Position numbers and translations under genes: made by a program. The notes under the pieces are model-generated. The model was not told the DNA's origin. It worked only from the letters and a program-made list of their open reading frames with translations, and made no database searches. Positions 9,816 to 40,091 of a DNA stretch of 40,472 nucleotides are shown piece after piece (the first letter of the stretch is position 1; every line of letters begins with the position of its first letter). The stretch covers positions 1 through 40,472 of the forward strand of contig LBCX01000003.1 in NCBI GenBank assembly GCA_001657575.1, read 5' to 3'. Source of the stretch: Bacteroidales bacterium Barb4. Its GTDB lineage: Bacteria > Bacteroidota > Bacteroidia > Bacteroidales > Tannerellaceae.

Positions 9816-10054
9816 TGTTACGCTAATTCCGAAGGAATGCCGGATTTCAGCCCAACGTAAAGCGAAGCGGCACGTTGGGTTAAGGTAAATACATACCGAT
9901 AAAGTCCTGACAGGACGATATAAAATACAAACGATGATTATATAATGTGTCGCACAAGCTATTCTGTCGTCCTTTTATTAACCCCACATTCCGCTTCCGC
10001 TGCATGTGGGGCTGAAATCCTCGTCCTTTCAGGACTTTTGCGTAACATCTAATC
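9813..10054. repeat. MITE-like element made of two inverted REP hairpins
   Basis: The left terminus TAATGTTACGC and the right terminus TGCGTAACATC (10039-10049) are inverted repeats. Inside the left end are a small hairpin (ATTCCGAAGGAAT) and a REP variant with stem CCCAACGT / ACGTTGGG. Inside the right end are the standard REP with stem CCCCACAT / ATGTGGGG and the hairpin GTCCTTTCAGGAC. The central part (AAAGTCCTGACAGGACGATA, then AAACGATGATTATAT) also occurs, inverted, in the element at 14815. The left end holds the HAD stop codon. The right end holds the last codons and stop of asd. Confidence 0.8.
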
Positions 10055-13281: not shown

Positions 13282-13502
13282 TTTCGCAAATTCCGAGATG
13301 CCCCGAAGGGGCAAAAGATTTCAGCCCCACATGCAGCGTAGCGGAATGTGGGGTTATAAGACAAGTGCATATCAATAAAGTCCTAAAGAACGATACAAAT
13401 CAGGACTTCTTTACCGGTATCACCATTAACCCCACATTCCGCTACGCTGCATGTGGGGCTGAAATCTTTTGCCCCTTCGGGGCATCTGCGTAACATCTGT
13501 TA
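13279..13502. repeat. MITE-like REP-pair element
   Basis: A left end TGATTTCGCA (degenerate) and a right end TGCGTAACATCTGTTA enclose two oppositely oriented REP hairpins (13318-13357 and 13428-13466), each next to a TGCCCCGAAGGGGCA-type hairpin. The centre is shorter than in the elements at 9813 and 14815 but keeps ATATCAATAAAGTCCT and GAACGATACAAATCAGG. There is no gene inside. Confidence 0.75.
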
Positions 13503-14804: not shown

Positions 14805-14812
14805 CAAAATTA
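14805..14812 (-). promoter_or_regulatory. Possible -7 element of the C11 peptidase gene
   Basis: On the minus strand this reads TAATTTTG (consensus TAnnTTTG), 24 bp before the ATG. The only TTTG upstream belongs to the MITE terminus and is about 14 bp away, too close for a normal -33 box. Confidence 0.35.
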
Positions 14813-14814
14813 TC

Positions 14815-15051
14815 ACCGACGTTACGCAAATGCCCCGAAGGGGCAAAAGATTTCAGCCCCACATGCAGCGAAGCGGAATGTGGGGGAAAGGACGACCGAA
14901 TAATTTATGCGGCATATAATCATCGTTTGAAATTTGTATCGTCCTGTCAGGACTTTATTGATATGTATTTATCTCAAACCCAACGTGCCGCTTCGCTTTA
15001 CGTTGGGCTGAAATCTTTTACCCCTTTGGGGCATCTGCATAACATCAGTTA
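14815..15051. repeat. MITE-like REP-pair element
   Basis: The termini GACGTTACGCA and TGCATAACATCAGTTA (15036-15051) enclose the hairpin TGCCCCGAAGGGGCA, a REP of the CCCCACAT type, and a centre that matches the 9813 element in reverse orientation (AAACGATGATTATAT, then TCGTCCTGTCAGGACTTTAT). A REP variant with stem CCCAACGT / ACGTTGGG follows, then a second small hairpin. No gene is inside. The element accounts for most of the spacer between the C11 gene and the alpha-glucuronidase. Confidence 0.8.
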
Positions 15052-15133
15052 GGATATAATTAAGCGGTTGAATTATCGAACCTGTCAAAAAATCAGACAA
15101 AAGTAGTGATACATTTAGAAACAAATAAAATTG

Positions 15134-15141
15134 TACTTTCG
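15134..15141 (+). promoter_or_regulatory. Possible -7 element of the alpha-glucuronidase gene
   Basis: TACTTTCG is one base from the TAnnTTTG consensus and sits 17 bp before the ATG at 15158. A good -33 box is not seen. Confidence 0.4.
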
Positions 15142-15157
15142 CCCGAATTATTTACAC

Positions 15158-17188
15158 ATGAAAAAACTACTCCCCCTTATCCTACTCCCCCTCTTTGCCT
15201 TTCAAGTACAGGCGGAGGACGGTAGCCGCCTCTGGCTGCGGGCGAAAGCCGATGCCAATGCACAGGTCGTTTACGATGCGGAGAAAAGCCCGACAATTGA
15301 TATTGTCGTGAATGAACTGCAAACACAGTGGACAGGCGCGCCTGTCCATTTGGTTATTGCCCAGTCAAAGGATATTCGCGCGTTAAAGGACGGCTATTTG
15401 ATTGCAGGCAACCGGACAACGGGTGTCACCATTACCTCTGCCACAGAACAAGGCTTGCTTTACGGAGCTTATCACCTGTTGCGCTTGCAGGAAACGGGAA
15501 AGGCAGAGGGTACGCTGAATATAAGGGAGTCGCCGCTGTACGACATCCGAATACTGAACCATTGGGACAATCTGGACGGCTCGGTGGAGCGCGGCTATGC
15601 CGGGCAGTCTATTTGGAAATGGGACGAGTTGCCGGGGCGACTGTCCCCGCGATACAAGGCGTATGCCCGCGCGAACGCTTCGATTGGCATCAATGCCACC
15701 GTCTTGAACAATGTAAATGCCTCGCCCAAAATACTGACCGCCGAAATGCTGAACAAGGTGAAAGTCATTGCCGATGAATTGCAACCGTATCATATAAAGG
15801 TGTACCTGTCCATTAACTTCTCATCGCCGGCGCAACTGGGCGGACTCCCGACTTCCGACCCCTTGAACGCCGATGTGCGCAAATGGTGGAAGGATAAAAT
15901 AAACGAAATATACCGCATCATCCCCAATTTCGGCGGCTTGCTGGTGAAAGCCAATTCCGAGGGCTTGCCCGGCCCGCAGGATTTCGGTCGCACTCATGCC
16001 GACGGTGCCAATATGCTTGCCGAAGCCTTGAAGCCTCACGGCGGGATTGTGATGTGGCGCGCCTTTGTTTACAGTCCCTCGAATGAAGACCGTGCCAAGC
16101 AGGCGGGGCTGGAGTTTCTGCCGTTGGACGGGCAGTTTGCGGATAATGTGATTGTGCAGGTGAAGAACGGGCCTATCGACTTTCAGCCGCGCGAACCGTT
16201 CAGTCCGCTGTTCGGAGCGATGAAGAAAACCCCGCTGATGGCGGAATTTCAAATCACGCAGGAATATTTGGGCTTTTCCAATCATCTGGTCTTTCTGGCA
16301 CCGCTGTGGAAGGAGTTTTTTGACAGTGACACCTATTGCAACGGCAAAGGTTCGACCACAGCCGCCGTGACGGACGGCACGCTTTTCCCCCAGCCGCTGA
16401 CTGCCGTGTCCGGCGTTGCCAATATCGGAGAGGATACCAACTGGTGCGGGCATCATTTTGCGCAAGCCAACTGGTACGCCTTCGGACGGCTGGCATGGAA
16501 TCACCGGCTGACGGCGGACGAGATTGCGGACGAATGGCTTCGGCAGACGTTTTCGCAAGACCCTGCCTTTCTCGAACCGGTCAAAAGCATGATGCTGACC
16601 TCCCGCGAGACAGCCGTCGATTATATGATGCCGCTGGGATTGCATCATATTTTCGCATGGAGTCATCATTACGGGCCGGAACCTTGGACGGATATTCCGG
16701 GTGCGCGTCCCGACTGGCTTCCCTCGTACTATCATCAGGCGGAGGCACGCGGTATCGGTTTCGACCGGACGGACAAGGGGAGCAATGCCATTTCACAATA
16801 TTTTTCACCGCTGAGGGAAGAGCTGAGCAATGTCAAAACCTGTCCCGAAAAGTTCCTGCTGTGGTTTCATCATGTGCCTTGGAATTATAAGATGAAAAGC
16901 GGGCGGCAGTTTTGGGATGAGCTGTGTTACAAGTATGATTCCGGCGTGCAGCAGGTGCGCGAGTATCAGAAGACGTGGGACAAGGCGGTGCAATACGTTG
17001 ATGAAGAGCGGTTCGGGCATGTGCAGTCCCGTTTGAAGATACAGGCGCAGGATGCCGTGTGGTGGAAGGATGCCTGCCTGCTTTATTTTCAGACGTTTTC
17101 CAAATTGCCTGTCCCTTATGATATTGAGCGACCGGTGCATGAGTTGGACGAGCTGATGCAGTCAAGCAAGGAGCAAAAGAATAAGTAA
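15158..17188 (+). CDS. Alpha-glucuronidase, GH67
   Basis: This enzyme removes 4-O-methyl-glucuronic acid from the non-reducing end of xylo-oligosaccharides. The 676-aa protein begins at MKKLLPLILLPLFAFQVQA, a signal peptide, so it is exported, probably to the periplasm. An N-terminal alpha/beta domain leads into the (beta/alpha)8 barrel and a helical C-terminal domain. The catalytic acid E268 lies in VKANSEGLPGP, and the paired bases D341 (KNGPIDFQPREP) and E369 (FQITQEYLG) follow. The spacings of 73 and 28 residues equal those of the characterised Cellvibrio enzyme (E292, D365, E393), as I recall them. No xylanase or xylosidase is next to it, so it may act on oligosaccharides made elsewhere. 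Confidence 0.95.
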   Translation: MKKLLPLILLPLFAFQVQAEDGSRLWLRAKADANAQVVYDAEKSPTIDIVVNELQTQWTGAPVHLVIAQSKDIRALKDGYLIAGNRTTGVTITSATEQGLLYGAYHLLRLQETGKAEGTLNIRESPLYDIRILNHWDNLDGSVERGYAGQSIWKWDELPGRLSPRYKAYARANASIGINATVLNNVNASPKILTAEMLNKVKVIADELQPYHIKVYLSINFSSPAQLGGLPTSDPLNADVRKWWKDKINEIYRIIPNFGGLLVKANSEGLPGPQDFGRTHADGANMLAEALKPHGGIVMWRAFVYSPSNEDRAKQAGLEFLPLDGQFADNVIVQVKNGPIDFQPREPFSPLFGAMKKTPLMAEFQITQEYLGFSNHLVFLAPLWKEFFDSDTYCNGKGSTTAAVTDGTLFPQPLTAVSGVANIGEDTNWCGHHFAQANWYAFGRLAWNHRLTADEIADEWLRQTFSQDPAFLEPVKSMMLTSRETAVDYMMPLGLHHIFAWSHHYGPEPWTDIPGARPDWLPSYYHQAEARGIGFDRTDKGSNAISQYFSPLREELSNVKTCPEKFLLWFHHVPWNYKMKSGRQFWDELCYKYDSGVQQVREYQKTWDKAVQYVDEERFGHVQSRLKIQAQDAVWWKDACLLYFQTFSKLPVPYDIERPVHELDELMQSSKEQKNK

Positions 17189-17228
17189 GATTTTCAGATA
17201 TATTATATATTCTTCCTTCGTAATTTAT

Positions 17229-17414
17229 CCTTTCCCACCTGTGGGAAGTTGTTTCCCACCTGCGGCTAATCCTTTCCCACCTGTGGGAGGTTGTTTCCCA
17301 CCTGCGGCTAATCCTTTCCCACCTGTGGGAGGTTGTTTCCCACCTGCGGCTAATCCCTTCCCACCTGTGGGAGGTTGTTTCCCACAGGTGGCTAATCCTT
17401 TCCCACCTGTGGGA
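17229..17414. repeat. 42-bp tandem repeat (4.4 copies)
   Basis: Units start at 17229, 17271, 17313, 17355 and 17397 (partial). Each contains TTTCCCACCTGTGGGA and TTTCCCACCTGCGGCTAAT, i.e. two 21-bp halves. The CCCAC / GTGGG arms can form short hairpins. Because 42 is divisible by three, both strands stay open: the minus strand reads as a 7/14-residue periodic peptide (SHRWERISRRWETT) and the plus strand as NPFPPVGGCFPPAA. No ribosome binding site or family similarity supports translation. Positions 17415-17740, after the repeat, show no gene. Confidence 0.85.
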
Positions 17415-17740
17415 ATTGATTTCGCCCAACGTTTTAACCATTAATTCGGAGGCTTTAAGTGTATGATACATAGACTTTGCGTCAAAAAAAGCGGGAATAG
17501 CTGCCATTTCGTCTCAACTTTTCGTCATCTCTCTGCGATAAAATATAAAAAACGCCGGTGCACAGGCACGGAAAACACGAAGTATGAAAAGTAATTGTCA
17601 GATAAGACCATTCATATCTACAATGAAATTAAAAAAGTAAAGTAATCCTCTGGCACTTTTATGTAAAATCAGTAAGTAATAACAGGTTATTATGGAAAAG
17701 ACATGGCGACGGGTTTTGGAAAAAAGACAGGATTGGGGGA

Positions 17741-17873
17741 TTACTGTGTGAGGGAAAAGCAGAGGCTGATGCCGTAGTTGGCGTTGGAGGTGGGGAAAGC
17801 GGAGCTGGAGATGAGGGGTTCGTTGATTTGCCAGTCGAGGAAGGCGCGCAGGGTAAGGGTGCGGCTCAGTCCG
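17741..17873 (-). pseudogene. sprA 3'-end fragment (copy A)
   Basis: The minus strand encodes the last 43 or so residues of SprA and its stop (LSRTLTLRAFLDWQINEPLI onward, ending FSLTQ). It is nearly identical to the true sprA end at 31592 and to copy B at 23526. It shares several base differences with copy B against the true gene (for example CTGATGCCG instead of CTGACCCCG). The match stops abruptly at about 17873, where a truncated susD on the opposite strand begins. Confidence 0.88.
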
Positions 17874-17877
17874 TCGC

Positions 17878-18230
17878 ACACAGCAAGACCAGTTCTTCTC
17901 CTACGCAATCACTTATGAGAAAGACAGTGAAGTAATCACCACCGACATCGTATCTTCCCTGACAAGCCTGTCGAAAGAAGCCTTTATACAGGAAGTATGG
18001 CAGGAGCGTATGCGTGAACTCGTCTATGACCTCCGTTATGGGACGACATCCAGCGCACACGCATGTATCCGGTGACGACGGCGACCGCTCCGGGCAAGGC
18101 TGCGTTTGTAAACGTAATCGGTGCTGCCAACCCTTGGGGGCAGACGTTTCAGGAAAAGCATCTCCTGTGGCCTGTCTCAGCCAATGAGATGCAGCGTAAT
18201 CCGTCATTGAAGCAGAATCAGGGGTATTAG
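17878..18230 (+). pseudogene. Frameshifted C-terminal remnant of a susD gene
   Basis: The plus strand encodes a typical RagB/SusD C-terminus in two frames. The first is QFFSYAITYEKDSEV, then EVWQERMRELVYDLRYG up to about 18040. After a one-base shift the frame continues WDDIQRTRMYPVT, then NPWGQTFQEKHLLWPVSANE and MQRNPSLKQNQGY with a TAG at 18228-18230. The N-terminal three quarters are missing and are replaced by the sprA copy A fragment, with a sharp junction near 17873-17878. It is a different susD from the intact gene at 21924. It is the last trace of an earlier susC/susD locus, cut by recombination and then frameshifted. Confidence 0.85.
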
Positions 18231-18289
18231 GACGCAGCTTTTAGCATTTAACATTCTTTGATTGGTATACCTATCCGCGCCGGATGCAG

Positions 18290-18326
18290 TCAAGTCCTGA
18301 AAGGTAGAATTGCGTAACATCAGTTA
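18290..18326. repeat. MITE-like right-end remnant
   Basis: AAGTCCTGAAAGGTAGAATT precedes TGCGTAACATCAGTTA, the conserved right terminus of the MITE-like elements. The rest of the element is absent. It lies between the susD remnant and the susC promoter. Confidence 0.65.
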
Positions 18327-18407
18327 AAAACAAGAATCATATAAGTATGATTTATAACGAATTAATTTTTCACGAATAATTTTAATGCGTTGACCTTGCC
18401 GGTATAA

Positions 18408-18438
18408 TTTGCCGCTTTCAGATTTATATATATTTTTG
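18408..18438 (+). promoter_or_regulatory. Bacteroides-type promoter of susC
   Basis: TTTG at 18408-18411 and TATTTTTG at 18431-18438 match the -33 (TTTG) and -7 (TAnnTTTG) boxes with a 19-bp spacer. Transcription would begin near 18445, giving a 5' leader of about 270 bases before the susC ATG. Confidence 0.6.
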
Positions 18439-18444
18439 CATCCG

Positions 18445-18690
18445 TTTAGAATACAGACTATATTATAAACAAAGTGTAGTATGATTAGCGGAATATGTAG
18501 CTTGATTGTTAAAACGGCAGATATGTTTGGCATAGCGGGATATTATGCTAACACACACATTCGCGCGTAATTTAGGTAATATCTCCAAGCGGTCTGATAG
18601 AGACTGTGTTCTGTCTCCTTATTATTCCTGAAAATCTGACACTTCCTGCGTACAAGGCAATAGCCTTCTGTGCGGGAAGTGTTTTTTTAT
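18445..18690 (+). ncRNA. Structured susC leader ending in a strong terminator (attenuator or small RNA)
   Basis: The leader holds at least three stems: GCATA / TATGC near 18530, GAGAC / GTCTC near 18600, and a long terminal hairpin at 18639-18682. In the last, ACACTTCCTGCGTA pairs with TGTGCGGGAAGTGT (with G-U pairs) and AAGGC with GCCTT inside, followed by seven T residues. The terminal hairpin has the form of an intrinsic terminator 26 bases before susC. The leader could be an attenuator, an independent small RNA, or both. No known riboswitch was recognised. Confidence 0.5.
18639..18688 (+). terminator. Intrinsic terminator / attenuator before susC
   Basis: An extended hairpin of about 19 pairs (ACACTTCC / GGAAGTGT at its base, loop AATA) is followed by TTTTTTT. 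It lies upstream of, not after, a gene on the same strand, so it must be read through or regulated for susC to be expressed from the promoter at 18408. Confidence 0.75.
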
Positions 18691-18713
18691 TAATGTTTTA
18701 AATCAAGAGAAGT

Positions 18714-21700
18714 ATGAAAGAAAATCGAAAGAGTATGAAACGAATGCTTGTTGCGTTCGTAGTGTCTTTGTTGAGTTTTACGGCGAGTACAGTCGTTCAT
18801 GCGGTGGGGAGTATGGATGCTCCTTCTTCCGTACAGCAAAGGAGGGCGGTAACGGGTACCGTTATTGACGCCCAGAGTGAGCCGGTTATCGGTGCGAATG
18901 TTATTGTGGAAGGGGAGCATACGGGTACGGTGACGGATGCTAACGGTGCGTTTTCTTTGGACATTCCCGCCAATGCCACCCTGCGTATTTCCTATATCGG
19001 ATACCTCGAACAAACGGTGACGGTCGGCAACAGGAGCAATCTCGTCATTACATTAAAGGAAGATTGGCAGGCGTTGGACGAAGTGGTCGTAGTTGGCTAT
19101 GGCACGATGAAGAAAAGAGATTTAACGGGAGCTGTTTCTTCCGTCAAGATGTCAGACTCGCCGGTGGCTACCGTTTCTACCATCAGCCATGCGTTGGCGG
19201 GAAAGGCTGCCGGTCTTCAGGTGAATACAATCAGTGCGCAACCGGGTGGGGAAGCTCAGTTCCGTATCCGTGGAGCGGCTTCTACGGGAGCGGGCAATGA
19301 TCCGTTGATTATCGTGGACGGCTTTCCGGTCAGTGCCTCCGGCAATTTGGGCGGAGGGAAATATGAAAATGGGAACACCGATAATATTTTGGCATCAATC
19401 AACCCGAACGACATTGAGTCCATTGAGGTGTTGAAGGATGCAAGCTCAACGGCTATCTACGGTGCCCGTGCCGGCAATGGTGTAATCATCATTACCACAA
19501 AGAAAGGGAGCAACGGCGCACCGAAGGTACAGTATTCGGGAACTGCTTCCGTTCAACGCATTGCCCGCAAGTATGATATGCTGAGTGCTTCCGACTTTAT
19601 GACACAGACCAACCGTTATACGAAGGAAGACTGGATGCGTGTAAACAAAGCCGATGTATATGGTGATGCAACGGTTGCTTTTCCGGAAGAGAATTACCTT
19701 TATTCAGCTGCGCAGATAGCCAATCCGGCAAACAGCACCGATTGGTTTGATGAAGTAACCCGCGCCGGTTTTCAGACACAGCACAATGTTTCTATCAACG
19801 GAGGAAATGAACATACGAAATATCTCGTTTCCGGCAACTTCTTCAATCAGGAAGGTGTTTTGAAAAACAACTCCCTGCAACGTTATACGGGACGTGTCAA
19901 TCTGGAACAGAAGTTGAGCAAATATGTCAAGACAGGCATCAACCTCACCCTTTCCCGGAACAAGTATGACAATGTGCCTTTGGGTTCGTCGCAGAATGAG
20001 AATGCACCCGTCATGGTTGCCGCTGCCCAGTTCAGCCCTATCCTTGCCGTGAAAGACGGGGAAGGCAATTACAACCTGAATACGCAAGCCGCCTTCCTGC
20101 CCAATCCCGTTTCCTTGTTGGACATAACCGACAATACAACGCGGGAAAGGGTATTGGCTACCGCTTACCTTGAAATAGAACCGATCAAAGACTTGAAGCT
20201 GAAAGGAAACTTCGGTATCGACCGCAACTATCAGAAGCGGGGCGTATATATGCCTAAAACCACTCTGTACGGACAAAAGGAAGGTGGGCGGGCGGACATC
20301 AACCAGTCCGACAAGTCCGACTACCTGATGGAACTGACCGCAGCCTATGTGAAGCAGATAAACGACCACAGTTTCAGCGTTGTCGGCGGCTACTCCTTTC
20401 AATCCTTCAACTACGAAAGACTCAATGCTGGAAACAACCAATTCCTCATCGACGGCTTTCTCTACAACAATATCGGCGCAGGCGGTGCCGCCAAACCTTG
20501 GGTAGGTTCCACAAAGACAAAAGACGAAATGGCTTCCTTCTTCGGGCGTATCAATTATACGTTCAAAGACCGTTACTTGCTGACTGCCACCTTCCGTGCG
20601 GACGGTGCGTCCAACTTTGCGGAGAATAACCGCTGGGGTTACTTCCCGTCCGTTGCTTTGGGATGGCGTTTTTTGGATGAAGCGTTTGCCGAATCGCTGA
20701 AGACCGTTCTTTCCAACGGTAAGTTACGCGCAAGCTATGGCGAAACGGGTAACTCCAATATCGGCAACCGTGCCATCAGCTACTATCAGGTGGGCAACAA
20801 CAACGAATTTGGAGATACGGAATCCAAAGGTGTTTACCTCAGTCAAATGGGCAATCCCGACATCAAATGGGAAACAACCAAAGAATGGAACTTCGGGATG
20901 GATTTGGGCTTTTTCAACAGCCGCCTCAATGTAACCGCCGAATACTTTGACAGGGTGGTGTCTGGACAGTTAGCCAGCCGCAGCCTCTTATCCTATCACG
21001 AACTAAGCAGTATTGCAGCAAATATCGGCGACACTCAGAGTCGCGGCTTTGAATTGACCCTCAATACAGTGAATGTAGAAACCTCTGATTTCAGCTGGAA
21101 TACCGACTTTACCTTCTCTTTCTATCGTGACAAATGGAAAAAGCGCGACGCGACATGGAAGCCGGCTGCTTATTCCATCTACAATGCACCACTCAGGGGT
21201 AGCTACGGTTATCTGTCCGACGGTTTGGTGCAAGCCGGTGAAACCGTTTCCCATATGCCCGGTGCACTTCCCGGACAGGTGAAGATTAAGGATATTGACG
21301 GTTTCCAAACCAATGCGGACGGCTCTATTGCGGTGGACGAAAACGGCAGGCAATTGAAAACGGGCGTGCCGGATGGCAAATTGAACGATGCCGACAGAGT
21401 GTTCTACGGAAGCGATGATCCCGGTTATCTGGTCGGTTTGAACAACACGCTGCGTTGGAAGAACTTCGACTTCAACTTTTACCTTTACGGTCAGTTGGAT
21501 AAATCAAATGCAGGTTCTTATCTGGATTTGTGGCTGACAAACCCCGGCGATATTGTCAATTTGTACAGAGGTTACAATATGCCCGTATCTGCCAAAGATG
21601 TATGGACACACGACAATCCCAATGCCCCCCGTCCGGGTTATTTCCAATCCAAAAGCACGTATGGCATTGCCGACTTCTATAGGGAAAACATCTGGTTTGT

Positions 21701-21902
21701 TCGTTGCCGGAACATCACGCTGGGATACACCGTTCCGTCTGCCAAAATTCACAAGATATTCTCCAATTTGCGCGTGTATGCGGATATAACCAACCCGTTT
21801 GTCCTCACCCCTTACAAAGGGCTTGATCCGGAAACGGACAACTCCGCATGGGCTTATCCTAACGTAAGAAGTTATAACTTGGGACTGGAAATCACATTCT
21901 AA
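18714..21902 (+). CDS. SusC/RagA-family TonB-dependent outer-membrane transporter
   Basis: This 1062-aa SusC-type beta-barrel imports oligosaccharides or peptides bound by its SusD lid, powered by TonB-ExbBD. Domains: signal peptide (about residues 8-31, MLVAFVVSLLSFTASTVVHA); a CarboxypepD_reg-like extension (about 44-120, VTGTVIDAQSEPVIGANVIV); the SusC signature LDEVVVVGYGTMKKRDLTGA; a plug domain to about 265 with IESIEVLKDASSTAIYGARA; and a long barrel ending YNLGLEITF, with the usual terminal aromatic residue. Starts at 18714 and 18735 are both possible; the first has AGAGAAGT before it. The susD gene follows after 21 bp. It lies downstream of a terminator-like leader. Its substrate is unknown because no hydrolase, regulator or sigma/anti-sigma gene adjoins it. 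Confidence 0.95.
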   Translation: MKENRKSMKRMLVAFVVSLLSFTASTVVHAVGSMDAPSSVQQRRAVTGTVIDAQSEPVIGANVIVEGEHTGTVTDANGAFSLDIPANATLRISYIGYLEQTVTVGNRSNLVITLKEDWQALDEVVVVGYGTMKKRDLTGAVSSVKMSDSPVATVSTISHALAGKAAGLQVNTISAQPGGEAQFRIRGAASTGAGNDPLIIVDGFPVSASGNLGGGKYENGNTDNILASINPNDIESIEVLKDASSTAIYGARAGNGVIIITTKKGSNGAPKVQYSGTASVQRIARKYDMLSASDFMTQTNRYTKEDWMRVNKADVYGDATVAFPEENYLYSAAQIANPANSTDWFDEVTRAGFQTQHNVSINGGNEHTKYLVSGNFFNQEGVLKNNSLQRYTGRVNLEQKLSKYVKTGINLTLSRNKYDNVPLGSSQNENAPVMVAAAQFSPILAVKDGEGNYNLNTQAAFLPNPVSLLDITDNTTRERVLATAYLEIEPIKDLKLKGNFGIDRNYQKRGVYMPKTTLYGQKEGGRADINQSDKSDYLMELTAAYVKQINDHSFSVVGGYSFQSFNYERLNAGNNQFLIDGFLYNNIGAGGAAKPWVGSTKTKDEMASFFGRINYTFKDRYLLTATFRADGASNFAENNRWGYFPSVALGWRFLDEAFAESLKTVLSNGKLRASYGETGNSNIGNRAISYYQVGNNNEFGDTESKGVYLSQMGNPDIKWETTKEWNFGMDLGFFNSRLNVTAEYFDRVVSGQLASRSLLSYHELSSIAANIGDTQSRGFELTLNTVNVETSDFSWNTDFTFSFYRDKWKKRDATWKPAAYSIYNAPLRGSYGYLSDGLVQAGETVSHMPGALPGQVKIKDIDGFQTNADGSIAVDENGRQLKTGVPDGKLNDADRVFYGSDDPGYLVGLNNTLRWKNFDFNFYLYGQLDKSNAGSYLDLWLTNPGDIVNLYRGYNMPVSAKDVWTHDNPNAPRPGYFQSKSTYGIADFYRENIWFVRCRNITLGYTVPSAKIHKIFSNLRVYADITNPFVLTPYKGLDPETDNSAWAYPNVRSYNLGLEITF

Positions 21903-21923
21903 ACAACTTAATTGAATAACAAC

Positions 21924-23408
21924 ATGAAAAAGCTAGTATATACCGTTCTTGCAGCGGCACTTGTGTTCTCCTCCTGCACGAATTTGGAGTCGGAGATGTA
22001 TGACGTGATTAATCCGGGTATTTTCCCGAAAAATGAAAAGGACGTGGAAGCCATTGTTACGTCTGCCGCTTACGCCCCATTCCGTTCAAGCGGCTACAGC
22101 GGTATCTTCACCGTCGCCTCGGGCGGGATACAAATCATTACTGAAATGTCCACCGACTTGGGCGAATGCCAGTGGAACGATGCCATTTGGCCGGATGTCC
22201 TCTACCAGAACTTTACGCCTAATTCAACGGGGGTAATAAAGTTCTACCGCGATCACCTGCGCGATATAAGTAAAATGACGCTGGCACTTGACCGCATAGC
22301 TCCCGTAGATATACAGGAAAGTGCCAAAGCCCGTCTGGCAGCCGAATTGCATTGCGGACGGGGCTGGCTGGCTTATTTGCTGTACGATTTATACGGTCCG
22401 GTGCCTGTCGCCACGCTCCAACAACTGCTCAATCCGGGACAGGAAGAGCTGTTGGAACGCCCGACAAAGGAGTGGATGGTTTCCTATATAGAAACGGAAT
22501 TGCAGGAAGCCGTTAAGGGGCTGCCCGCCAATTACAAGTCTTCCGATGCCAACTATGGACGCTTTACCGGAGGATTGGCTTATACCGTTTTGATGAAGTT
22601 GTATATGCACGAAGGGAATTGGGCGGAAGCAGAAAAGTGCGCCCGCGAATTGATGAAACTGGAATACAGCTATGCCTTGGTGCCGGAATACAAAGACATC
22701 TTCACGCTTGAAAACGAGAAGAACGCCGAAATCATCTGGGCAGCCCAATGTAGCCGGGGCGTAAACCAGCAACTTTGGCTGGCACACGTCCTTCCGAGCC
22801 AATACCCGACAAAGAACCCTAATATCCAGAAATGGAGCGGCTACCGCGTACCTTGGGCTTTTTACAACACCTTCGACCCGAAGGACAAGCGGCTGGAAAC
22901 ATTGGTCGGCGACTTTGCGGGAACAGACGGCGAAACCTACAACGAGCAGAATAAAGGTGTCGTATTGGCAAAAGGTGCCTTGCCCGTCAAATACGGCGAA
23001 GACCCCGTGGCAACTGGCGAAGAAAGCCAAGTTGACTGGATTGTCTACCGCTATGCCGACATACTGACGTCTCTCTCCGAAATTATTGTGCGCAGGAACA
23101 ACGCTGTTACACAGGAAGCTGTCGATTTGCTGAACACCGTCCGCAACCGTGCAGGCATTACTCCCTACACATTGAGCAGCTTTGCCAATACAGAAGACTT
23201 TTTGGATAAAGTACTGCTTAATCGCGGACAGGAGTTCTGGTTTGAAGGGCTTCGCCGAACCGACCTTATCCGCCACGGGAAGTACATCGAATATGCCCGG
23301 ACATGCAAAGGCTCCGTAACCACCAAAGATGAATTCGTGCTGATGCCGCTTCCGCAAGCTGCCATTAACGAAGGGAAAGGGATAGTGATACAGAACCCCG
23401 GATATTAA
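21924..23408 (+). CDS. SusD/RagB-family outer-membrane lipoprotein
   Basis: This 494-aa surface lipoprotein is the substrate-binding partner of the SusC transporter just upstream. I chose the ATG at 21924 (MKKLVYTVLAAALVFSSC), which gives a lipobox with the lipidated cysteine C18; the frame upstream uses TTG. The TPR-like SusD fold is seen in the middle (GRGWLAYLLYDLYGPVPVAT). The conserved C-terminal segment LLNTVRNRAGI, then NRGQEFWFEGLRRTDLIRHG, identifies the RagB/SusD family. It ends PLPQAAINEGKGIVIQNPGY. A strong terminator follows at 23429. The ligand cannot be inferred from sequence. Confidence 0.95.
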   Translation: MKKLVYTVLAAALVFSSCTNLESEMYDVINPGIFPKNEKDVEAIVTSAAYAPFRSSGYSGIFTVASGGIQIITEMSTDLGECQWNDAIWPDVLYQNFTPNSTGVIKFYRDHLRDISKMTLALDRIAPVDIQESAKARLAAELHCGRGWLAYLLYDLYGPVPVATLQQLLNPGQEELLERPTKEWMVSYIETELQEAVKGLPANYKSSDANYGRFTGGLAYTVLMKLYMHEGNWAEAEKCARELMKLEYSYALVPEYKDIFTLENEKNAEIIWAAQCSRGVNQQLWLAHVLPSQYPTKNPNIQKWSGYRVPWAFYNTFDPKDKRLETLVGDFAGTDGETYNEQNKGVVLAKGALPVKYGEDPVATGEESQVDWIVYRYADILTSLSEIIVRRNNAVTQEAVDLLNTVRNRAGITPYTLSSFANTEDFLDKVLLNRGQEFWFEGLRRTDLIRHGKYIEYARTCKGSVTTKDEFVLMPLPQAAINEGKGIVIQNPGY

Positions 23409-23428
23409 AAGTTGCAACACGCAATAAG

Positions 23429-23466
23429 GACAGGTGTCTCTAATATAGAGACATCTGTCTTTGTTT
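23429..23466 (+). terminator. Terminator of susC-susD
   Basis: GACAGGTGTCTCTA (23429-23442) and TAGAGACATCTGTC (23446-23459) form a 14-bp stem with one G-U pair and a three-base loop, followed by TTTGTTTT. It lies 21 bp after the susD stop. Confidence 0.8.
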
Positions 23467-23471
23467 TAAGA

Positions 23472-23500
23472 ACAGGTGTCCTTGTTGCAGGGACACTTGT
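23472..23500 (-). terminator. Terminator at the end of sprA copy B
   Basis: On the minus strand ACAAGTGTCC and GGACACCTGT form a 10-bp stem (one G-U) followed by TCTTAAAAC. It sits about 25 bp beyond the copy B stop codon. A degenerate version (GTGTC / GACAC) lies at the same distance beyond the true sprA stop, so this hairpin was probably the ancestral sprA terminator and would now end the res transcript. Confidence 0.55.
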
Positions 23501-23525
23501 CCCTCTTTCACATTGGGCCGGGAAA

Positions 23526-23771
23526 TTACTGTGTAAGGGAAAAGCGGAGGCTGATGCCGTAGTTGGCGTTGGAGGTGGGGAAAGCGGAGCTGGAGATGAG
23601 GGGTTCGTTGATTTGCCAGTCGAGGAAGGCGCGCAGGGTGAGGGTGCGGCTCAGTCCGTAGTCGGCGGAGAACATGACGGTCTTGGCGATGTTGCCTGCG
23701 GTGGCTTGGGTCTGGCTGGTGTCAATCTTGCGGATGAGGGACTGCATTTTGCGGTAGGAGAAGATGTTGAG
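23526..23771 (-). pseudogene. sprA 3'-end fragment (copy B)
   Basis: The minus strand encodes the last 80 or so residues of SprA (FSYRKMQSLIRKIDTSQTQ, then SNANYGISLRFSLTQ and stop) with very few changes from the true gene. In-frame reading upstream meets a TAA at 23772-23774. The first codons (LNI then FSYRK) match two sprA places 135 bp apart, as if the copy had suffered an internal deletion at the short repeat GGTAGGAG. Similarity continues about 50 bp past the stop into the terminator. The internal ATG could make a 73-residue frame, but this is a gene fragment, not a gene. Confidence 0.88.
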
Positions 23772-23839
23772 TTAACAATACCTTCTTAGATTCTGTTTGA
23801 ACAATCAATTTAATATATGAGCAAGATATTTTTTTCCAT

Positions 23840-26800
23840 TCAACTCACTATTTTGAGCAACTCCTCATACGAATTAACAACGTCATATTTTACTTTATCA
23901 CAACTAATGGCGGCAAAATGTTTCCGGGCACAAGATATTTTAGCACTTTCCACTTCCCGTAACTGAAGAGAAGACATATCTCCCTTGGTTTCTGCCACAA
24001 AGTAGATGTGTTTGACTGCACCCTCATTGAAAGCAATCGCCCAATCGGGATTATACTTTCCCACGGGTGTATTGATATAGAAGCCACGGGGGAGCTTCAC
24101 GTAAACAGCGACTTCATCCCGTTTTTCCAATTCTTCGGCAAAAGGACGTTCTGTGTGCGGGGAATCATACACAACGTAGTCGTATAAATGCTTTTCAACT
24201 TTCATGGCATTTACGTCTTTCTGCCCTTTAATCGTTGGGTCAGTAAACAGTGATGAATCATAACATACGTCTAATTTATTGTAAGCGATGTGCTGCACGA
24301 TAACTGTTGCCTTTTGTTCATTAATTAATTCAGCAGCTTTCATTATAAATTCTTCGGGATTATCCTTGAATTTATCAAAAACCGACTTTTCAATTCCATT
24401 GAGGATATCAACTACCGTTTTGCGAGTCAAGCCGGTATCTTCTGTAATTTTGCCTACAAGGTCATATTTTACAGCGTTATTGGATGTTAGCTCTAATTGT
24501 GCGGATTTAGTTTTATTGGCATCAAAGGCTTGACCTGCTTGCAAAACATCTTTTGATTTGATGCTGTTCATCACTCCTTCGGTAATTTTGACGTATATCT
24601 TGGATACGTGCAATTTGCTGTTAAGTGCTGCAATAGCTTTTTTTACCAATTCTTCGCCTTCAAATTTTACCATATAAGCTGATTTGGGACGAATCAACTT
24701 CCACAATGCCTGAAATTCTTTACGCTCGAAATTATCCTTTCTGAAATGTAGTTCCACATTATTTTTACGAGCATTTTCAGGAGCTAATTGCTTTGTATCA
24801 TATACCGAATCCAAAATATTTACGATAGACTCTTTATAATCAGCAATTTCATCATCAAAACATAAAAAGCCAGTTTTTTTATCATCGTAATACTTATCGG
24901 TAATCTCGCCTTTTTTTACATATCCGTTTTCAAGCAGGGAGTCATAAATAGTTTGTGCTATATCTTTTGTGACGACTATTGCTTCTCCGTCTGCAGTGTT
25001 TATGATTTTTTCATTAAATAGTTGTATGTCAACTTTAAGCGGCCGATCTGAAATAATCTCTGCCAATTCTGTTTGCAAGCCTTTTGCAAACGATTCATAC
25101 GATTCGCTTGCGATAACTGTAAGCACATTCACATCATGGACTTCCTCGCCTAAAGCAGAAACATCCATCCGCTCACCTTGTGCATTTACACAAAGACGTA
25201 AGCCGCGCCCCACTTCCTGACGTTTGCGAACTTCAGCACTGCTTTGTTTGAGGGTGCATATCTGAAAAACGTTCGGATTATCCCAACCTTCGCGAAGGGC
25301 AGAATGGGAAAAGATAAACCGAACCGGTTCTTTCCTGTCAAGCAAACGTTCTTTGTTGCGCATAATCAAATCGTAAGCATCCACATCGCCCGATTCTTTT
25401 GTTCTGCGTTCTTCTTTGCTGTCAACCATTTTACCTTTCTTGTCTTTGGAAAAATATCCGGCATGTGCTTTTTCAGCAACCGTATTTTTCAGGAAATCAA
25501 GGTACTTTTCTTGGTCAAAAAGAGCAGAGGGCAGATTGTTTATAATGTCTGCATATTCTTCTTCAAATATATTGGCGTATTCGCCATTTTGTTCGGGGTC
25601 GTATAACCTGTATTTTGCTACTTCATCAATAAAAAAGAGAGATAATACTTTTATGCCGCGATGAAACAATTCACGTTCTTTTTCTATATGAGAAAGGATT
25701 GTTTCACGGATTTGGATTCGCCTTAATTGGCTTTCATTCACTATCCCCTCCACATCTCCGATATACAGTTTTTTACCGTTCTGAAAGGTTACGGTATTTT
25801 CTCTTCCATCAATATCCGTAATGATATACCCGTTGCGATATTCTTCCAAGCCTCCTGATTTGGCATAAAGATTATCGCCTATACTCAACACATGGATTAC
25901 TTGACGGACGGATTTAGCTACTTTTTTATCAAAACCAATATGGGCTGTCGGATTTTTGTCTCTATATAAATTGATATTTTGCAGGTAGATATAGCCATCC
26001 GTTGCTGTTGTACCGCTTACCGAAATGCCTTTTACTGCAATTTTCTTTACTAATCGCTTATTGTATGCTTCCATTGCATCCAAGCGGTAAATCATGTTAT
26101 AGATGCTGTCTTTACGGTGGGTAGCCGAATAGCGCAAAGTGAGCAAAGCGTTGAACCTTTTCAGACCTTTTTTGGTTGCAACTCCTTCTACAGATTGAGG
26201 TTCATCAATAATTAAAATAGGGTTGGTTTTAGCAATCACATCAATGGGGCTGCGGCTTTTGAAAGCATCTTGCTTCCTGTAAATACGATTACCTTCTGTT
26301 TTCTTTAATTTATTGTTTTTGTCATATTGGGGAGCATTAAAGGCTTGTGAATTGATAATCATTACATTGATGGCACTATCGCTTGCAAAATGCTCTATAT
26401 CAGTCAAGTTTTTGGAATTATAAATAAAGAATCGGATTTTTTTACCGTAATCTTCTGCAAAATGCTCCTGTGTAATCTCAAAACTTTTGTGTACACCTTC
26501 GCGGATAGCCACACTTGGTACGACCACAATAAACTTCGTCCAACCATATTGTTTATTCAACTCAAACATGGTTTTAATGTAAGTGTATGTTTTTCCAACA
26601 CCTGTTTCCATCTCAATGGTCAGATTATAACCAAATTGATTTTCCTTTTCCAATTTGTTTGATGGCTTGATATGCTGAGCGCGTTGTATTTCTTTAATAT
26701 GTTTCAGCACAACATCATCGGTAAGTTCAATGGTATGATTTTTAACCCCGGTATAATAATCGGCACTATATTGGATCTGACCTTCAATCGTTCCCAGGTC

Positions 26801-26902
26801 AATGGCATAATTTGCCATTTTATAAGGTTGACCGGCAAAAACATCGCATACTGCTTTTGCAGCATCTGCCTGAAAACGTTGATATTTGAATTTTAATTTC
26901 AT
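23840..26902 (-). CDS. res: Type III restriction enzyme, Res subunit
   Basis: Res is the ATP-dependent translocase/endonuclease of a type III restriction-modification system and acts with Mod. The 1020-aa protein carries a superfamily 2 helicase core: Walker A METGVGKT (98-105), motif II DEPQ (233-236), motif III SATH (259-262), and motifs V/VI FSHSALREGWDNPN and QEVGRGLRL in the middle. The C-terminal nuclease domain has a PD-(D/E)xK site (P952-D953, then E971-T-K973 in VAETKGD). Length and domain order fit intact type III Res proteins. It is the last gene of the mod-AAA-res operon, 14 bp after the AAA gene. Its stop lies 69 bp from the sprA copy B repeat. Confidence 0.95.
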   Translation of the reverse strand: MKLKFKYQRFQADAAKAVCDVFAGQPYKMANYAIDLGTIEGQIQYSADYYTGVKNHTIELTDDVVLKHIKEIQRAQHIKPSNKLEKENQFGYNLTIEMETGVGKTYTYIKTMFELNKQYGWTKFIVVVPSVAIREGVHKSFEITQEHFAEDYGKKIRFFIYNSKNLTDIEHFASDSAINVMIINSQAFNAPQYDKNNKLKKTEGNRIYRKQDAFKSRSPIDVIAKTNPILIIDEPQSVEGVATKKGLKRFNALLTLRYSATHRKDSIYNMIYRLDAMEAYNKRLVKKIAVKGISVSGTTATDGYIYLQNINLYRDKNPTAHIGFDKKVAKSVRQVIHVLSIGDNLYAKSGGLEEYRNGYIITDIDGRENTVTFQNGKKLYIGDVEGIVNESQLRRIQIRETILSHIEKERELFHRGIKVLSLFFIDEVAKYRLYDPEQNGEYANIFEEEYADIINNLPSALFDQEKYLDFLKNTVAEKAHAGYFSKDKKGKMVDSKEERRTKESGDVDAYDLIMRNKERLLDRKEPVRFIFSHSALREGWDNPNVFQICTLKQSSAEVRKRQEVGRGLRLCVNAQGERMDVSALGEEVHDVNVLTVIASESYESFAKGLQTELAEIISDRPLKVDIQLFNEKIINTADGEAIVVTKDIAQTIYDSLLENGYVKKGEITDKYYDDKKTGFLCFDDEIADYKESIVNILDSVYDTKQLAPENARKNNVELHFRKDNFERKEFQALWKLIRPKSAYMVKFEGEELVKKAIAALNSKLHVSKIYVKITEGVMNSIKSKDVLQAGQAFDANKTKSAQLELTSNNAVKYDLVGKITEDTGLTRKTVVDILNGIEKSVFDKFKDNPEEFIMKAAELINEQKATVIVQHIAYNKLDVCYDSSLFTDPTIKGQKDVNAMKVEKHLYDYVVYDSPHTERPFAEELEKRDEVAVYVKLPRGFYINTPVGKYNPDWAIAFNEGAVKHIYFVAETKGDMSSLQLREVESAKISCARKHFAAISCDKVKYDVVNSYEELLKIVS

Positions 26903-26916
26903 CTATTCATCTTTGA

Positions 26917-29475
26917 TTATTGTTTTAGAAAAGCAGCTCTAATTGTTTTAAAATCTCCAAAATCTACCTTAAGCCCGGTGATTGAAGGTTCATTATAAAT
27001 TTCTATTGGATTACTATGCCCCTTTATATAACCGCAACACCTTTCAAATATTTCGTTCAATTTATCTTTATGTGTATCCACTGAACTTCCATCAACTTTA
27101 ACAAACTGTGTTAATGCAATATTTTTTTGATAACGTTTTACTGTACTTTGAAAAATTTCATGCTCTACAAGTAATTCAATGGCAGAACGCAAGTAGCCAT
27201 AGCCATCTTCGGCTACTTCTGCTTCTGGTCTGTCCTTCGGAGTATTATTAACTATTATATTGATTTTAGAAATATAGTCTTTTAAAGTGTTAATTTCTTC
27301 AGCGTTACAAATAATACCCGTTTGTTCATACTCATTTTTGGAGTTGTAAAAAGCACAATTAATTCCACTAAATGACGGCTGTTTGTTAAAATATAGAAAA
27401 CTATTAAAGAGTAAAATACTATGAGTAAAAACGACAACCTGACGTTCAGTGGATAATTGCAATAGCCGTCTTGCAAGATCGTCAATAATATTGTGGTCAA
27501 GGCTATTAACAGGGTCATCGAAAATTACTGAAGCTTTTATGCTGTCAAGTTGTAATTCCGTTAAAAATTCAGATAATGCAATAGCTTTCTGTTCCCCTTC
27601 GCTTAAGATATCCAAAAGAGAATATGTATTAATTTTATGCGAAACTTTTGAGTGTCCCTGATTCGTTCCGAAGTTTAAATCTATTTTAATTTGACTCTTT
27701 CTTAAATATTTTAATTCACTATTAAATATAGTCTCAAAATTTGATTTAACCAAAGCATCTCTTGCTTCTGTTGTTTTTCTACTAATAGGGGTTGTGCTAA
27801 AAGCACTTACATTATTGCTTAATACCGATGTTATATTATGGTTTTTCATAGCTGTTTTTATTTCTTCTATTTTTAACGAAATAAATTTTCGGTCAGTTAA
27901 TTCAGCTACTTTGTTTTTTAATTCGGTCTCCTTTGATGATAAATTGTCTAATAACATTTTTTTCTGAGTAAGAGTAGATTTTATCAGTTGTTGCTTTTCT
28001 AATAGAAACTTTATAATTGCATCATAATCAATCGCATGTAAAGACAAATCAAAAATAAGGTCTGAAATAAACTCATTTTTAAATGTACGAAGATTATTTT
28101 TAAAATCCACAAGTTCTTTGGGTTGGATAGGCTTTTGATTTTCGTTGGTTCCAAAAGTTGGTTGATGGAGGACAATGTTTTCATTAATTGATTTAACTTT
28201 ATCAATCAGATTATTTTTTTGTTTTCTTATATCCAATAAACTCTCTTGTGTTTTATCATTAAGAAGTATACGATAACTGTTTAATAATTCTTTTGCCGAG
28301 GGTTGCAAGGGTTGCAAACAATAAATGCATATATCTTGCTGTTCAGGATAGTGTGGTTTTCCCAAGATTTTTATGTAATCTTCTGCTGATTTTATAAAAG
28401 ATTGGAATTGATCTGTTTCATAAAAAGAGATTCCATTAGATTCAGCAATTTCCTTTATTCCTTTTTGAGTATTTTTTTTTAATTCAGTTATTTTATTATT
28501 GAATTCAATTAGTGTCTGAGCAGTTGTCGTATTCAGAATTGTCTTGGCCGTTTGGATTATACTTATTATTTCATTAAGTTCTAAAACAGAAGCACTATAA
28601 TTTTGCATTTCTGTTTGGATTAACGCTTTATTCAAACAAGATAATTCTACTTGTTTATTTTTTAATTCTTCTTCATTTCCAGAAGTAAAATTTGATAATT
28701 CGGTTAACTTTTGTTCCGTCGATATAGAAGATAGCTTTGAAATAAAATCTTTTTGAGGAGTTCCGTCTGTTAAGGATTCAACCCATCCAAGTTGAGTTGG
28801 ATATTGTTGAATTGTTGAACCCAATAGATTAGCTAATTCATTTAATTCAGAAGTAACTAAACTAAACAAATGAAATCCAATAGGAGATACTATCAGTTGT
28901 CTGTCCGACAATGAGATTTGCACACAATTATTATTAAAAACAGAAATATTTTCGAGTTCTGCATTTCTATTTGTCCCATTCCAAATAAATGGATCTTCTT
29001 CTACTCCATTTAAATTATATTTTATTGTGGCTACTTTAGGTGTGCTGCTTTCAAAAATATTGGATAATATTCTATTATTAGTATCATAGCTGAAACCAAG
29101 TGATTTTAATATCCGAGCATATCCGGTTTTTCCAGTTCCATTTTCGCCAAACACTACTGTCAGATTTTTACTAAATACAATAGTTTGGTTTGGAGCTAAA
29201 CGATTTACCCCAGTAATTTCTGATAGAGATGTCAACTCTATTTTCTTGCTTGTTGGAGTATATGTTGGTTTTTGAATGTTCAAAGTGGGCAACCCTGAAC
29301 GTAACCGAACTGACTGCAAAAAATAATTAAATATTTCTTTTCTGTTGGTTGATGACAATTCATTTTCTGAAGTCACTACTTTATCTATTAGTAACTTACC
29401 CCAATCGCCTTTAGTTTCTGCCCATTCCCAAAGGAAATCAATAATTTCTTTTTTTGTTGTTGTCGTTGAACTCAT
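26917..29475 (-). CDS. AAA ATPase of PrrC/RloC type, possible HEPN RNase effector
   Basis: This 852-aa protein has an ABC/SMC-type ATPase split around a coiled coil. Walker A is GENGTGKT (110-117). A long coiled-coil region (about 265-545) carries CIYC (C383, C386) at its midpoint, like a zinc hook. The signature is ILSEGEQKAIAL (623-634), Walker B is IFDDPVNSLDH (651-661), and the H-loop is VVFTHS (681-686). The N-terminal 60 residues are extra. This head matches the PrrC/RloC (AAA_13) group, in which ATPase and C-terminal anticodon-nuclease domains are fused. The last 90 residues are helical and contain R763-SAI-E767 and R812-(7)-H820, reminiscent of the R/E/H nuclease residues of PrrC-type HEPN domains, but the spacing is not standard. 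It sits between mod (13 bp) and res (14 bp), as prrC sits inside a type I hsd operon. An alternative is an SMC-like nuclease helper without RNase activity. Confidence 0.72.
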   Translation of the reverse strand: MSSTTTTKKEIIDFLWEWAETKGDWGKLLIDKVVTSENELSSTNRKEIFNYFLQSVRLRSGLPTLNIQKPTYTPTSKKIELTSLSEITGVNRLAPNQTIVFSKNLTVVFGENGTGKTGYARILKSLGFSYDTNNRILSNIFESSTPKVATIKYNLNGVEEDPFIWNGTNRNAELENISVFNNNCVQISLSDRQLIVSPIGFHLFSLVTSELNELANLLGSTIQQYPTQLGWVESLTDGTPQKDFISKLSSISTEQKLTELSNFTSGNEEELKNKQVELSCLNKALIQTEMQNYSASVLELNEIISIIQTAKTILNTTTAQTLIEFNNKITELKKNTQKGIKEIAESNGISFYETDQFQSFIKSAEDYIKILGKPHYPEQQDICIYCLQPLQPSAKELLNSYRILLNDKTQESLLDIRKQKNNLIDKVKSINENIVLHQPTFGTNENQKPIQPKELVDFKNNLRTFKNEFISDLIFDLSLHAIDYDAIIKFLLEKQQLIKSTLTQKKMLLDNLSSKETELKNKVAELTDRKFISLKIEEIKTAMKNHNITSVLSNNVSAFSTTPISRKTTEARDALVKSNFETIFNSELKYLRKSQIKIDLNFGTNQGHSKVSHKINTYSLLDILSEGEQKAIALSEFLTELQLDSIKASVIFDDPVNSLDHNIIDDLARRLLQLSTERQVVVFTHSILLFNSFLYFNKQPSFSGINCAFYNSKNEYEQTGIICNAEEINTLKDYISKINIIVNNTPKDRPEAEVAEDGYGYLRSAIELLVEHEIFQSTVKRYQKNIALTQFVKVDGSSVDTHKDKLNEIFERCCGYIKGHSNPIEIYNEPSITGLKVDFGDFKTIRAAFLKQ

Positions 29476-29488
29476 ATTTGAAGTAGTA

Positions 29489-31498
29489 TTAAATAACTTT
29501 TATCGTTGTCTCTGGGGATATCGCTTTGAATATCTCCGTCACATTTATCTTATCCGCGCTGTCTTTGAACGAAACATCTCGAAAAACAACTCGTGAAGGT
29601 CTGTGCTTGGCAATAGTACGAATGGTGTCTTCCGATATCTTTTCATCAAAACAGGCAATTAGGTCTGTCTCATTCACGAAATGAACAGTTTGCCCGTTTA
29701 TCTTTTCCTGTTTATGGGGTAACGATAGCGGAACTCCCCAGTCAATCAAGCAACTGTAGAGTAAATCTATGTCGTTACGGTCTTCTTTGATATTGCTTAT
29801 TAAATCCAACAAATCTTTCTGTTGGTATTCTCCAGCACTGTAATAAACATCTTTCATATTGGTTGAGTCAAGTTTGAAAACACGGAAGCCGGTATCCAAC
29901 TTTTGACTTTCTTCGGAAGGCAATCCGCTGTTTTTTGCTGATTGTTGTTCTTCTAATTTTGCTCCTGCGCGCCGGATACGTTCTTTGCCAATTTCGCAAA
30001 TGTTTTTGTAACCAGCTTTATAGGCTTCGCTGTCTTTTGCACATTCTTCGGGAAGTTGCACCATGATAAACTTACGATTACCACCGTTTTCGACATTTAG
30101 CTGCATCACAGCATGGGCGGTTGTGGCTGATCCAGAGAAGAAGTCGAGGACTATGGCGTCATCACAATTACTGGCTTTTAGCATTCTTTCAATAAGGAGT
30201 AGTGGTTTCTTTCCGTTAGGAAATATTATGCCTCCTTCTTGTGCTACACCTCCATCATTGGAAATATCAATCCAATTATCAGAAAGAAAAACCGAAGAGT
30301 TAGCTTCAGCTTGTACTAACTCAATTCGTGGGTCTCTCGCCTCTTTGTTATAATCAGATCTAAAAAATCTTTTATTACCATCATTATTAGTATAGCAAAC
30401 TATTTGTTGTGAATAAGATTTATTATTGATTCGTTTTGCTAAAGAAGTATTAGATTTTGTGCCAAATATCCTATAAGCATTATGCCACTTCCATTCTTCA
30501 GAAAGCTCAATCTCACTATCCTTAGCATAATCTACTAAGCTAATTAGATGCATTTTACTTAATAGGTTATTCACGACTTTGTCTGACATCTCATCAAAAG
30601 AAACAAATTGATTTTTCATCAATTCTGGAATTATTAAATTATACTCTTTATCCCATTTTTCTTTATTTTTTTTCCCAATATAGAGAGAATGTTGTTTGAC
30701 TCCTTTTTTATAAAGTAATAAAAACTCTTTCTGTGCTGGAAATCTTTTACCAGTTATAGCATGAGTCATTTTTACACCTGAAAGACTATTCATGTTTACT
30801 ACTATAGCATTGATAAAGTTGTCCTCTCCAAACACTTCATCACAGATCTTCTTCAATTGTGCCACTTCATTATCATCAATCGAAATAAAAATCACCCCAT
30901 CATCCGTCAACAGATTTCGAGCCAACATAAGTCGAGGATAAATCATAGAACACCAATCAGAGTGGAAACGTCCATTGGTTTCGGTGTTTTTGAAAAGTCG
31001 GTTTCCTTCTTCATCAAATACACCCAATTCATTTTCATATTCATCTTTTGTTTGAGAGAAGTCGTCGCGATAAATAAAGTCGTTACCTGTGTTATAAGGA
31101 GGGTCAATATAAATCATCTTCACTTTTCCCAAATAACTTTCCTGCAAAAGCTTCAGCACTTCGAGATTGTCACCCTCTATGTAGATATTCTCGGTAGTAT
31201 CCCAATTTTTGCTTTCCTTCACACAAGGACGAAGTGTTTTGCGGATAGGCGTAGCGGAATCAGCAATGGCTTGACGTTTTCCAACCCATGTAAAATCGTA
31301 ACGTTCAGTTTCATCGTCGATAACCAACATTTCATTTGGATTGGTCGAAAGCATCAACTTTAGTTTTTCAAAATCAATGGCTTTATGTAACACTCCGTTT
31401 TCGTCTTTAGCTTCCGTAACAACGCTTGGAAAAAGAGCGGCAATTTTTTCTATGTTACTTCCTGTAATATCTACCGATTGCATTTTTAATTTATCCAT
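29489..31498 (-). CDS. mod: Type III DNA methyltransferase, Mod subunit
   Basis: Mod is the N6-adenine methyltransferase and specificity subunit of the type III system; it protects host DNA and directs Res. The 669-aa protein has motif IV DPPY (132-135, YIDPPYNTGND) before the SAM-binding motif I DFFSGSATTAHA (452-463), the beta-class order expected for Mod. The segment between (about 235-410) is the likely target-recognition region. A C-terminal Res-contact region follows. No simple-sequence repeat suitable for phase variation is visible in the reading frame. It starts only 94 bp below the sprA stop, on the same strand, with no clear promoter of its own and a weakened terminator between. Confidence 0.95.
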   Translation of the reverse strand: MDKLKMQSVDITGSNIEKIAALFPSVVTEAKDENGVLHKAIDFEKLKLMLSTNPNEMLVIDDETERYDFTWVGKRQAIADSATPIRKTLRPCVKESKNWDTTENIYIEGDNLEVLKLLQESYLGKVKMIYIDPPYNTGNDFIYRDDFSQTKDEYENELGVFDEEGNRLFKNTETNGRFHSDWCSMIYPRLMLARNLLTDDGVIFISIDDNEVAQLKKICDEVFGEDNFINAIVVNMNSLSGVKMTHAITGKRFPAQKEFLLLYKKGVKQHSLYIGKKNKEKWDKEYNLIIPELMKNQFVSFDEMSDKVVNNLLSKMHLISLVDYAKDSEIELSEEWKWHNAYRIFGTKSNTSLAKRINNKSYSQQIVCYTNNDGNKRFFRSDYNKEARDPRIELVQAEANSSVFLSDNWIDISNDGGVAQEGGIIFPNGKKPLLLIERMLKASNCDDAIVLDFFSGSATTAHAVMQLNVENGGNRKFIMVQLPEECAKDSEAYKAGYKNICEIGKERIRRAGAKLEEQQSAKNSGLPSEESQKLDTGFRVFKLDSTNMKDVYYSAGEYQQKDLLDLISNIKEDRNDIDLLYSCLIDWGVPLSLPHKQEKINGQTVHFVNETDLIACFDEKISEDTIRTIAKHRPSRVVFRDVSFKDSADKINVTEIFKAISPETTIKVI

Positions 31499-31591
31499 AT
31501 ATGCTTTGTTTTAATTTCTTTTTATTATGGTTAGTAATGCCGTGTCTTGTTTTAGGGACACCTGCCTCTCTTTTATATTGCGACAGAGAAA

Positions 31592-39655: not shown

Positions 39656-39812
39656 CTGCCGTTAATTGAAAAGCATATTCTAAACGTAGAAGGTATAACG
39701 CAGAATAAGGGCAAAGCGTATGTATGGGGGGAATTTTTTGCAAAGGCACAGACGCTCTGCCTTCGGATAAAAGAAAGTGAGACACAACCGTGCCTCCGTA
39801 GTTAAGAATAAA

Positions 39813-40047: not shown

Positions 40048-40091
40048 GATTGCCTCCAAATAAAATTTGTTAAAAGTATCTCTGATACGGA

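Follow-up and report, generated by a model that had tools for sequence, protein, structure and literature searches.

A 134-nucleotide copy of the sprA 3' end within a rearrangement junction of a Tannerellaceae genome, close to a type III restriction-modification cassette flanked by long direct repeats

Accretion of integrative elements of the CIME/ICE kind at the 3' end of a gene leaves repeated gene ends around cargo. In double illegitimate recombination, unrelated DNA is joined at one or a few matching bases, and the join can take up copies of short stretches from elsewhere in the cell's genome. Restriction-modification (R-M) systems can insert with long, variable target duplications, on the order of 100 bp (PMC3874152, PMC3031569), a pattern that these reviews trace to Nobusato et al. 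(2000) and Furuta et al. (2010). Homology-facilitated and double illegitimate recombination are cited for Acinetobacter baylyi transformation in PMC8116780; a literature search on short-patch double illegitimate recombination yielded nothing useful.

The window, the whole 40,472-nucleotide stretch analysed here, is the entire contig C319 of a Tannerellaceae genome (G000) of 3.33 Mb in 553 contigs. The relatives compared are other members of the same family, none of them from the same genus. The sprA gene, a secretion gene, adjoins ruvA, as it does in the compared relatives. An earlier note on this DNA had reported three sprA 3' ends, and all three are present: copy A (17741-17874), copy B (23526-23763) and the live end of the gene, denoted R (from 31592). 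The region is laid out as follows.

15131-17188, plus strand: intact GH67 alpha-glucuronidase gene (Pfam GH67 M and C domains, E = 3e-146 and 4e-93), the left edge of the rearranged region.
17227-17414, no strand: tandem array of 42-nt units (TTTCCCACCTGTGGG...), a dispersed repeat also present on at least five other contigs of the genome.
17639-17734, plus strand: uxuA', 45 nt of upstream DNA and the first ~42 nt of the mannonate dehydratase gene, with small indels; 87% identical to C327:108-203 of the same genome.
17741-17874, minus strand: copy A, the terminal 134 nt of sprA with its stop codon; 98% identical to B and 95% to the live end.
17875-18230, plus strand: susD', a 3' part truncated on its 5' side, with a 219-nt internal deletion and one frameshift relative to the intact susD on contig C311.
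18384-18559, plus strand: susC upstream/leader DNA, 90% identical to C254:5743-5917 of the same genome.
18714-21902, plus strand: intact susC (TIGR04056, 897 bits).
21912-23408, plus strand: intact susD (PF07980), convergent with copy B.
23526-23771, minus strand: copy B, the terminal 238 nt of sprA with 8 nt of more upstream sequence.
23840-26902, minus strand: type III restriction subunit, Res (PADLOC REase_III, 960 bits).
26917-29475, minus strand: AAA-type ATPase between Mod and Res (PADLOC candidate PDC-S06, 1281 bits; PF13166, E = 7e-12).
29489-31498, minus strand: type III methyltransferase, Mod (PADLOC MTase_III, 692 bits).
31592-39040, minus strand: intact sprA with the live 3' end R (TIGR04189, 2938 bits).

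The tandem array at 17227-17414 contains TTTCCCACCTGTGGG palindromes. A palindromic intergenic repeat (AACCCCACATTCCGCT...CATGTGGGGCTGAAATC) occurs in many copies and in both orientations (71-595, 9980-10054, 13287-13502, 14812-15051 and 39812-40062). An Rfam search of 17190-24000 gave no match.

On its left, copy A borders a uxuA 5' fragment (17639-17734) that the earlier note had missed. The intact uxuA lies on contig C327 and matches TIGR00695 with 415 bits, and C327:108-203 is the start of that gene. In nine loci of relatives the gene immediately after GH67, on the same strand, is uxuA; as the GH67 gene of the window ends at 17188, the fragment is the stump of its expected neighbour. The downstream DNA of sprA itself does not follow copy A, and homology of A past the stop codon into the B-type flank was not significant (shuffle p 0.2). 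On the right, the abrupt join to susD that had been described was borne out: the match of A to sprA breaks off at 17874/17875, and the C-terminal part of susD begins within a base or two. The full-length susD that matches this remnant was found in the same genome on C311, a 5.25-kb contig carrying complete susC and susD, with 98% identity over 17940-18229 and 85% over 17868-17948 (E = 7e-140 against the intact gene). The remnant had been regarded as intact to its stop except for one frameshift; the frameshift (one base missing near 18037) and the stop codon (18228-18230) are there, but 219 nt are missing at about 17941-17948 relative to the intact homologue. With uxuA' on the left and susD' on the right, copy A is thus the middle of a uxuA'-sprA'-susD' junction. 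Examined as a filler, it lies between two truncated genes and is 98% identical to B, 5.8 kb away. The matching bases at its joins, ATTAC at uxuA/sprA and about one base at sprA/susD, are short and prove nothing.

Upstream of the live susC lies DNA of its own, which over 176 nt is 90% identical to a second site in the genome; the susD' stump may thus be of no consequence for this gene. The other copy of this leader, on contig C254, is at a contig end beside a different susC-susD pair and points away from that pair. We saw no orthologues of the window's susC-susD pair beside sprA in the relatives.

Copies A and B align far above chance (E = 2e-62). Across the 134 nt shared by all three ends, there are 3 differences between A and B, 4 between B and R, and 7 between A and R. 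No base is found in B alone; A alone carries the divergent base at each of the three A-B differences, and at the four other sites that distinguish A from R it agrees with B, indicating that A probably derived from a B-type sprA end. The earlier proposal that A and B are closest to each other therefore holds for A, which is nearer to B than to R, but B is central, only four bases from R, and beyond this central place of B the three ends do not resolve into a tree. One private change of A puts Cys in place of an Arg that 54 of 58 relative loci have at this position (the 58 retrieved sprA loci include some genomes twice), and the four differences of R are three synonymous changes and one Ile/Val. 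This pattern of private changes fits a decaying A and a selected R.

Copy B extends deeper into sprA than copy A and is identical to R over the next 105 nt beyond the shared 134. Its 8 extra nucleotides derive from a point 135 nt deeper in sprA and are attached at an imperfect repeat of 11 nt, that is, a 135-nt deletion between GGTAGGAG(A/G)AG repeats; across this join, window positions 23753-23771 match 31954-31972 at 18 of 19 bases. Allowing for such a secondary deletion, B probably once reached 381 nt into sprA, so that the depths are 134 nt for A and 238 nt, or 381 nt, for B. The sequence beside B at 23476-23525 also matches the downstream DNA of the live end. We found no second sprA end among 124 other genomes of the family and no duplicated end in the 58 retrieved loci, again counting some genomes twice; the relatives with a match, all from other genera, carry a single sprA end.

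Between B and R lies a cassette encoding Mod, the AAA-type ATPase (PDC-S06) and Res. It is surrounded by a direct repeat of 289 columns, 273 of them identical, that flanks 23764-31541, and its GC content is 29-40% (24000-31000) against 51-61% in sprA. These repeats and this GC contrast give good support to one insertion, that of the R-M cassette between B and R. No integrase or recombinase was found among the genes of either the susC-susD or the R-M segment (susC, susD, res, AAA ATPase, mod). Type III relatives of the cassette occur in other family members away from the sprA 3' end, and in none of them did we find this R-M type adjoining that end. Downstream of sprA we found no conserved or defence-rich neighbourhood; the genes there vary between genera and are partly conserved within some. 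In one relative (genome G024, contig C2, locus L066) a similar type III R-M system is separated from the sprA 3' end by 16-20 kb and sits on the side of ruvA, a proximity that is probably coincidental. The closest solved relative of the ATPase (26917-29475) by sequence is the AriA ATPase (E 2e-5), and the protein matches Pfam AAA_13, to which RloC/PrrC-like proteins belong. Its gene is perhaps an additional defence gene within the type III R-M cassette.

From the fragments, their intact homologues, the junctions and the repeat lengths observed here, we infer mechanisms and an order of events. The account that we favour, at somewhat better than even confidence, is that the A junction is a non-functional scar in which a deletion between uxuA and susD was joined through the 134-nt copy of the sprA end, the R-M insertion being a separate event. 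A GH67-uxuA pair would have kept no more of uxuA than its first ~14 codons, a susC-susD pair would have kept only the final part of its susD, and the broken ends would have been joined through a copy of the nearby sprA 3' end. That copy could be templated filler from break repair, or the remainder of a tandem duplication running from susD to sprA and followed by deletion. The scraps would later have decayed by point changes and an internal deletion. Separately, the type III R-M cassette would have entered the sprA 3' end, leaving the ~289-nt direct repeat of B and R and a live end slightly unlike A and B. We favour this account because uxuA 5' DNA lies to the left of A, where uxuA is expected after GH67, and susD to the right; because intact uxuA (C327) and susC-susD (C311) exist elsewhere in the genome; because A and B reach different depths into sprA, with no integrase and a single sprA end elsewhere in the family; and because A shares the bases of B and has its private Arg to Cys change at a near-invariant site. 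The earlier note had read the order of the segments as two or more insertions at the same spot. One such insertion, that of the R-M cassette, stands, but a second is not required for A, given the differing depths and a flank that is uxuA and not the DNA downstream of sprA; compared with a further insertion there, A appears better explained by a deletion that fused uxuA to susD with a piece of sprA, duplicated or templated, at the join.

Successive insertions at the sprA 3' end are the next explanation to weigh, and we regard them as doubtful. On this reading sprA formerly ended at A beside uxuA, a susD-susC-susD block bringing its own sprA end from a related strain displaced A, and the R-M cassette later displaced B; each join would be homologous on the sprA side and illegitimate on the other. 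The order A, susC-susD, B, R-M, R agrees with it, and its R-M step has a clear repeat and foreign GC. The four coding differences between B and R all fall in the 106 nt nearer the stop, beside an identical run of 132 nt, and 12 further differing columns (10 mismatches, 2 gaps) lie in the ~49 nt downstream of the stop, a distribution that a crossover inside the repeat would give, the coding contrast being weak (Fisher p 0.04). The same reading needs an extra deletion to bring uxuA codon 14 to the sprA stop, however, and it predicts allele differences between A and B, whereas all three A-B differences are private to A; neither GH67-uxuA nor this susC-susD pair lies beside sprA in any retrieved relative. 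A broader version, in which incoming blocks (first nutrient-uptake genes, later R-M) repeatedly land at the sprA 3' end in this lineage, each replacing the gene end, and the direct repeats left behind allow amplification or loss of susC-susD or R-M, we consider improbable.

Equally improbable, in our estimate, is an assembly artefact, with repeats collapsed or misjoined in the 553-contig genome. The exact runs of 132 nt shared by B and R and of 93 nt shared by A and B could allow another resolution of the graph with short k-mers or reads, and the susC-susD or R-M unit could be a circle or a tandem array. Against this, A and B have bases absent from R, and both flanks, uxuA' and susD', carry differences of their own from the intact homologues; shared k-mers at the junctions therefore do not account for the joins. 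In addition, the distance from the two junctions of A to its private bases is 10 and 20 nt, too short for any shared k-mer of at least 21 to join A wrongly to its flanks, and a misjoin there is unlikely. That site-specific elements (ICE/IME/CIME-like) accumulated at an att site near the end of sprA, as gene-end duplications flanking two cargo segments might suggest, is largely refuted and very improbable, since the genes of both segments include no integrase or recombinase, the duplications do not begin at the same point in sprA (134 nt in one case, 238 or 381 nt in the other), and 0 of 124 other family genomes have a repeated sprA end.

The A junction is a genuine, ordinary genome-rearrangement scar. 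It offers a well-resolved case of gene scraps accumulating beside a conserved gene in Bacteroidales, with sprA intact and the understanding of sprA unchanged. The neighbouring cassette offers a case of type III R-M insertion with a long target duplication, a pattern known mainly from Helicobacter comparisons.

Compared with the known systems, this locus resembles CIME/ICE accretion in that repeated gene ends surround cargo, and differs in the absence of an integrase and of common endpoints (134 nt for A, 238 nt or beyond for B). For B, the cassette and R, the closest known pattern, and one that fits, is R-M insertion with a long target duplication: the cassette sits between direct target repeats (289 nt of sprA end and downstream DNA) with no transposase or integrase. 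Unlike that pattern, the two copies of the repeat are not identical, with 16 of 289 columns differing and most of these lying past the stop, and 289 nt compares with ~100 bp in published cases; no empty site was seen in the relatives compared, none of them congeneric. The R-M model covers B and R but not the A junction. The A junction resembles double illegitimate recombination, as described for Acinetobacter baylyi, in that unrelated DNA is joined at one or a few bases with a short genomic piece at the join, and differs in that the 134-nt piece could equally stem from duplication and deletion.
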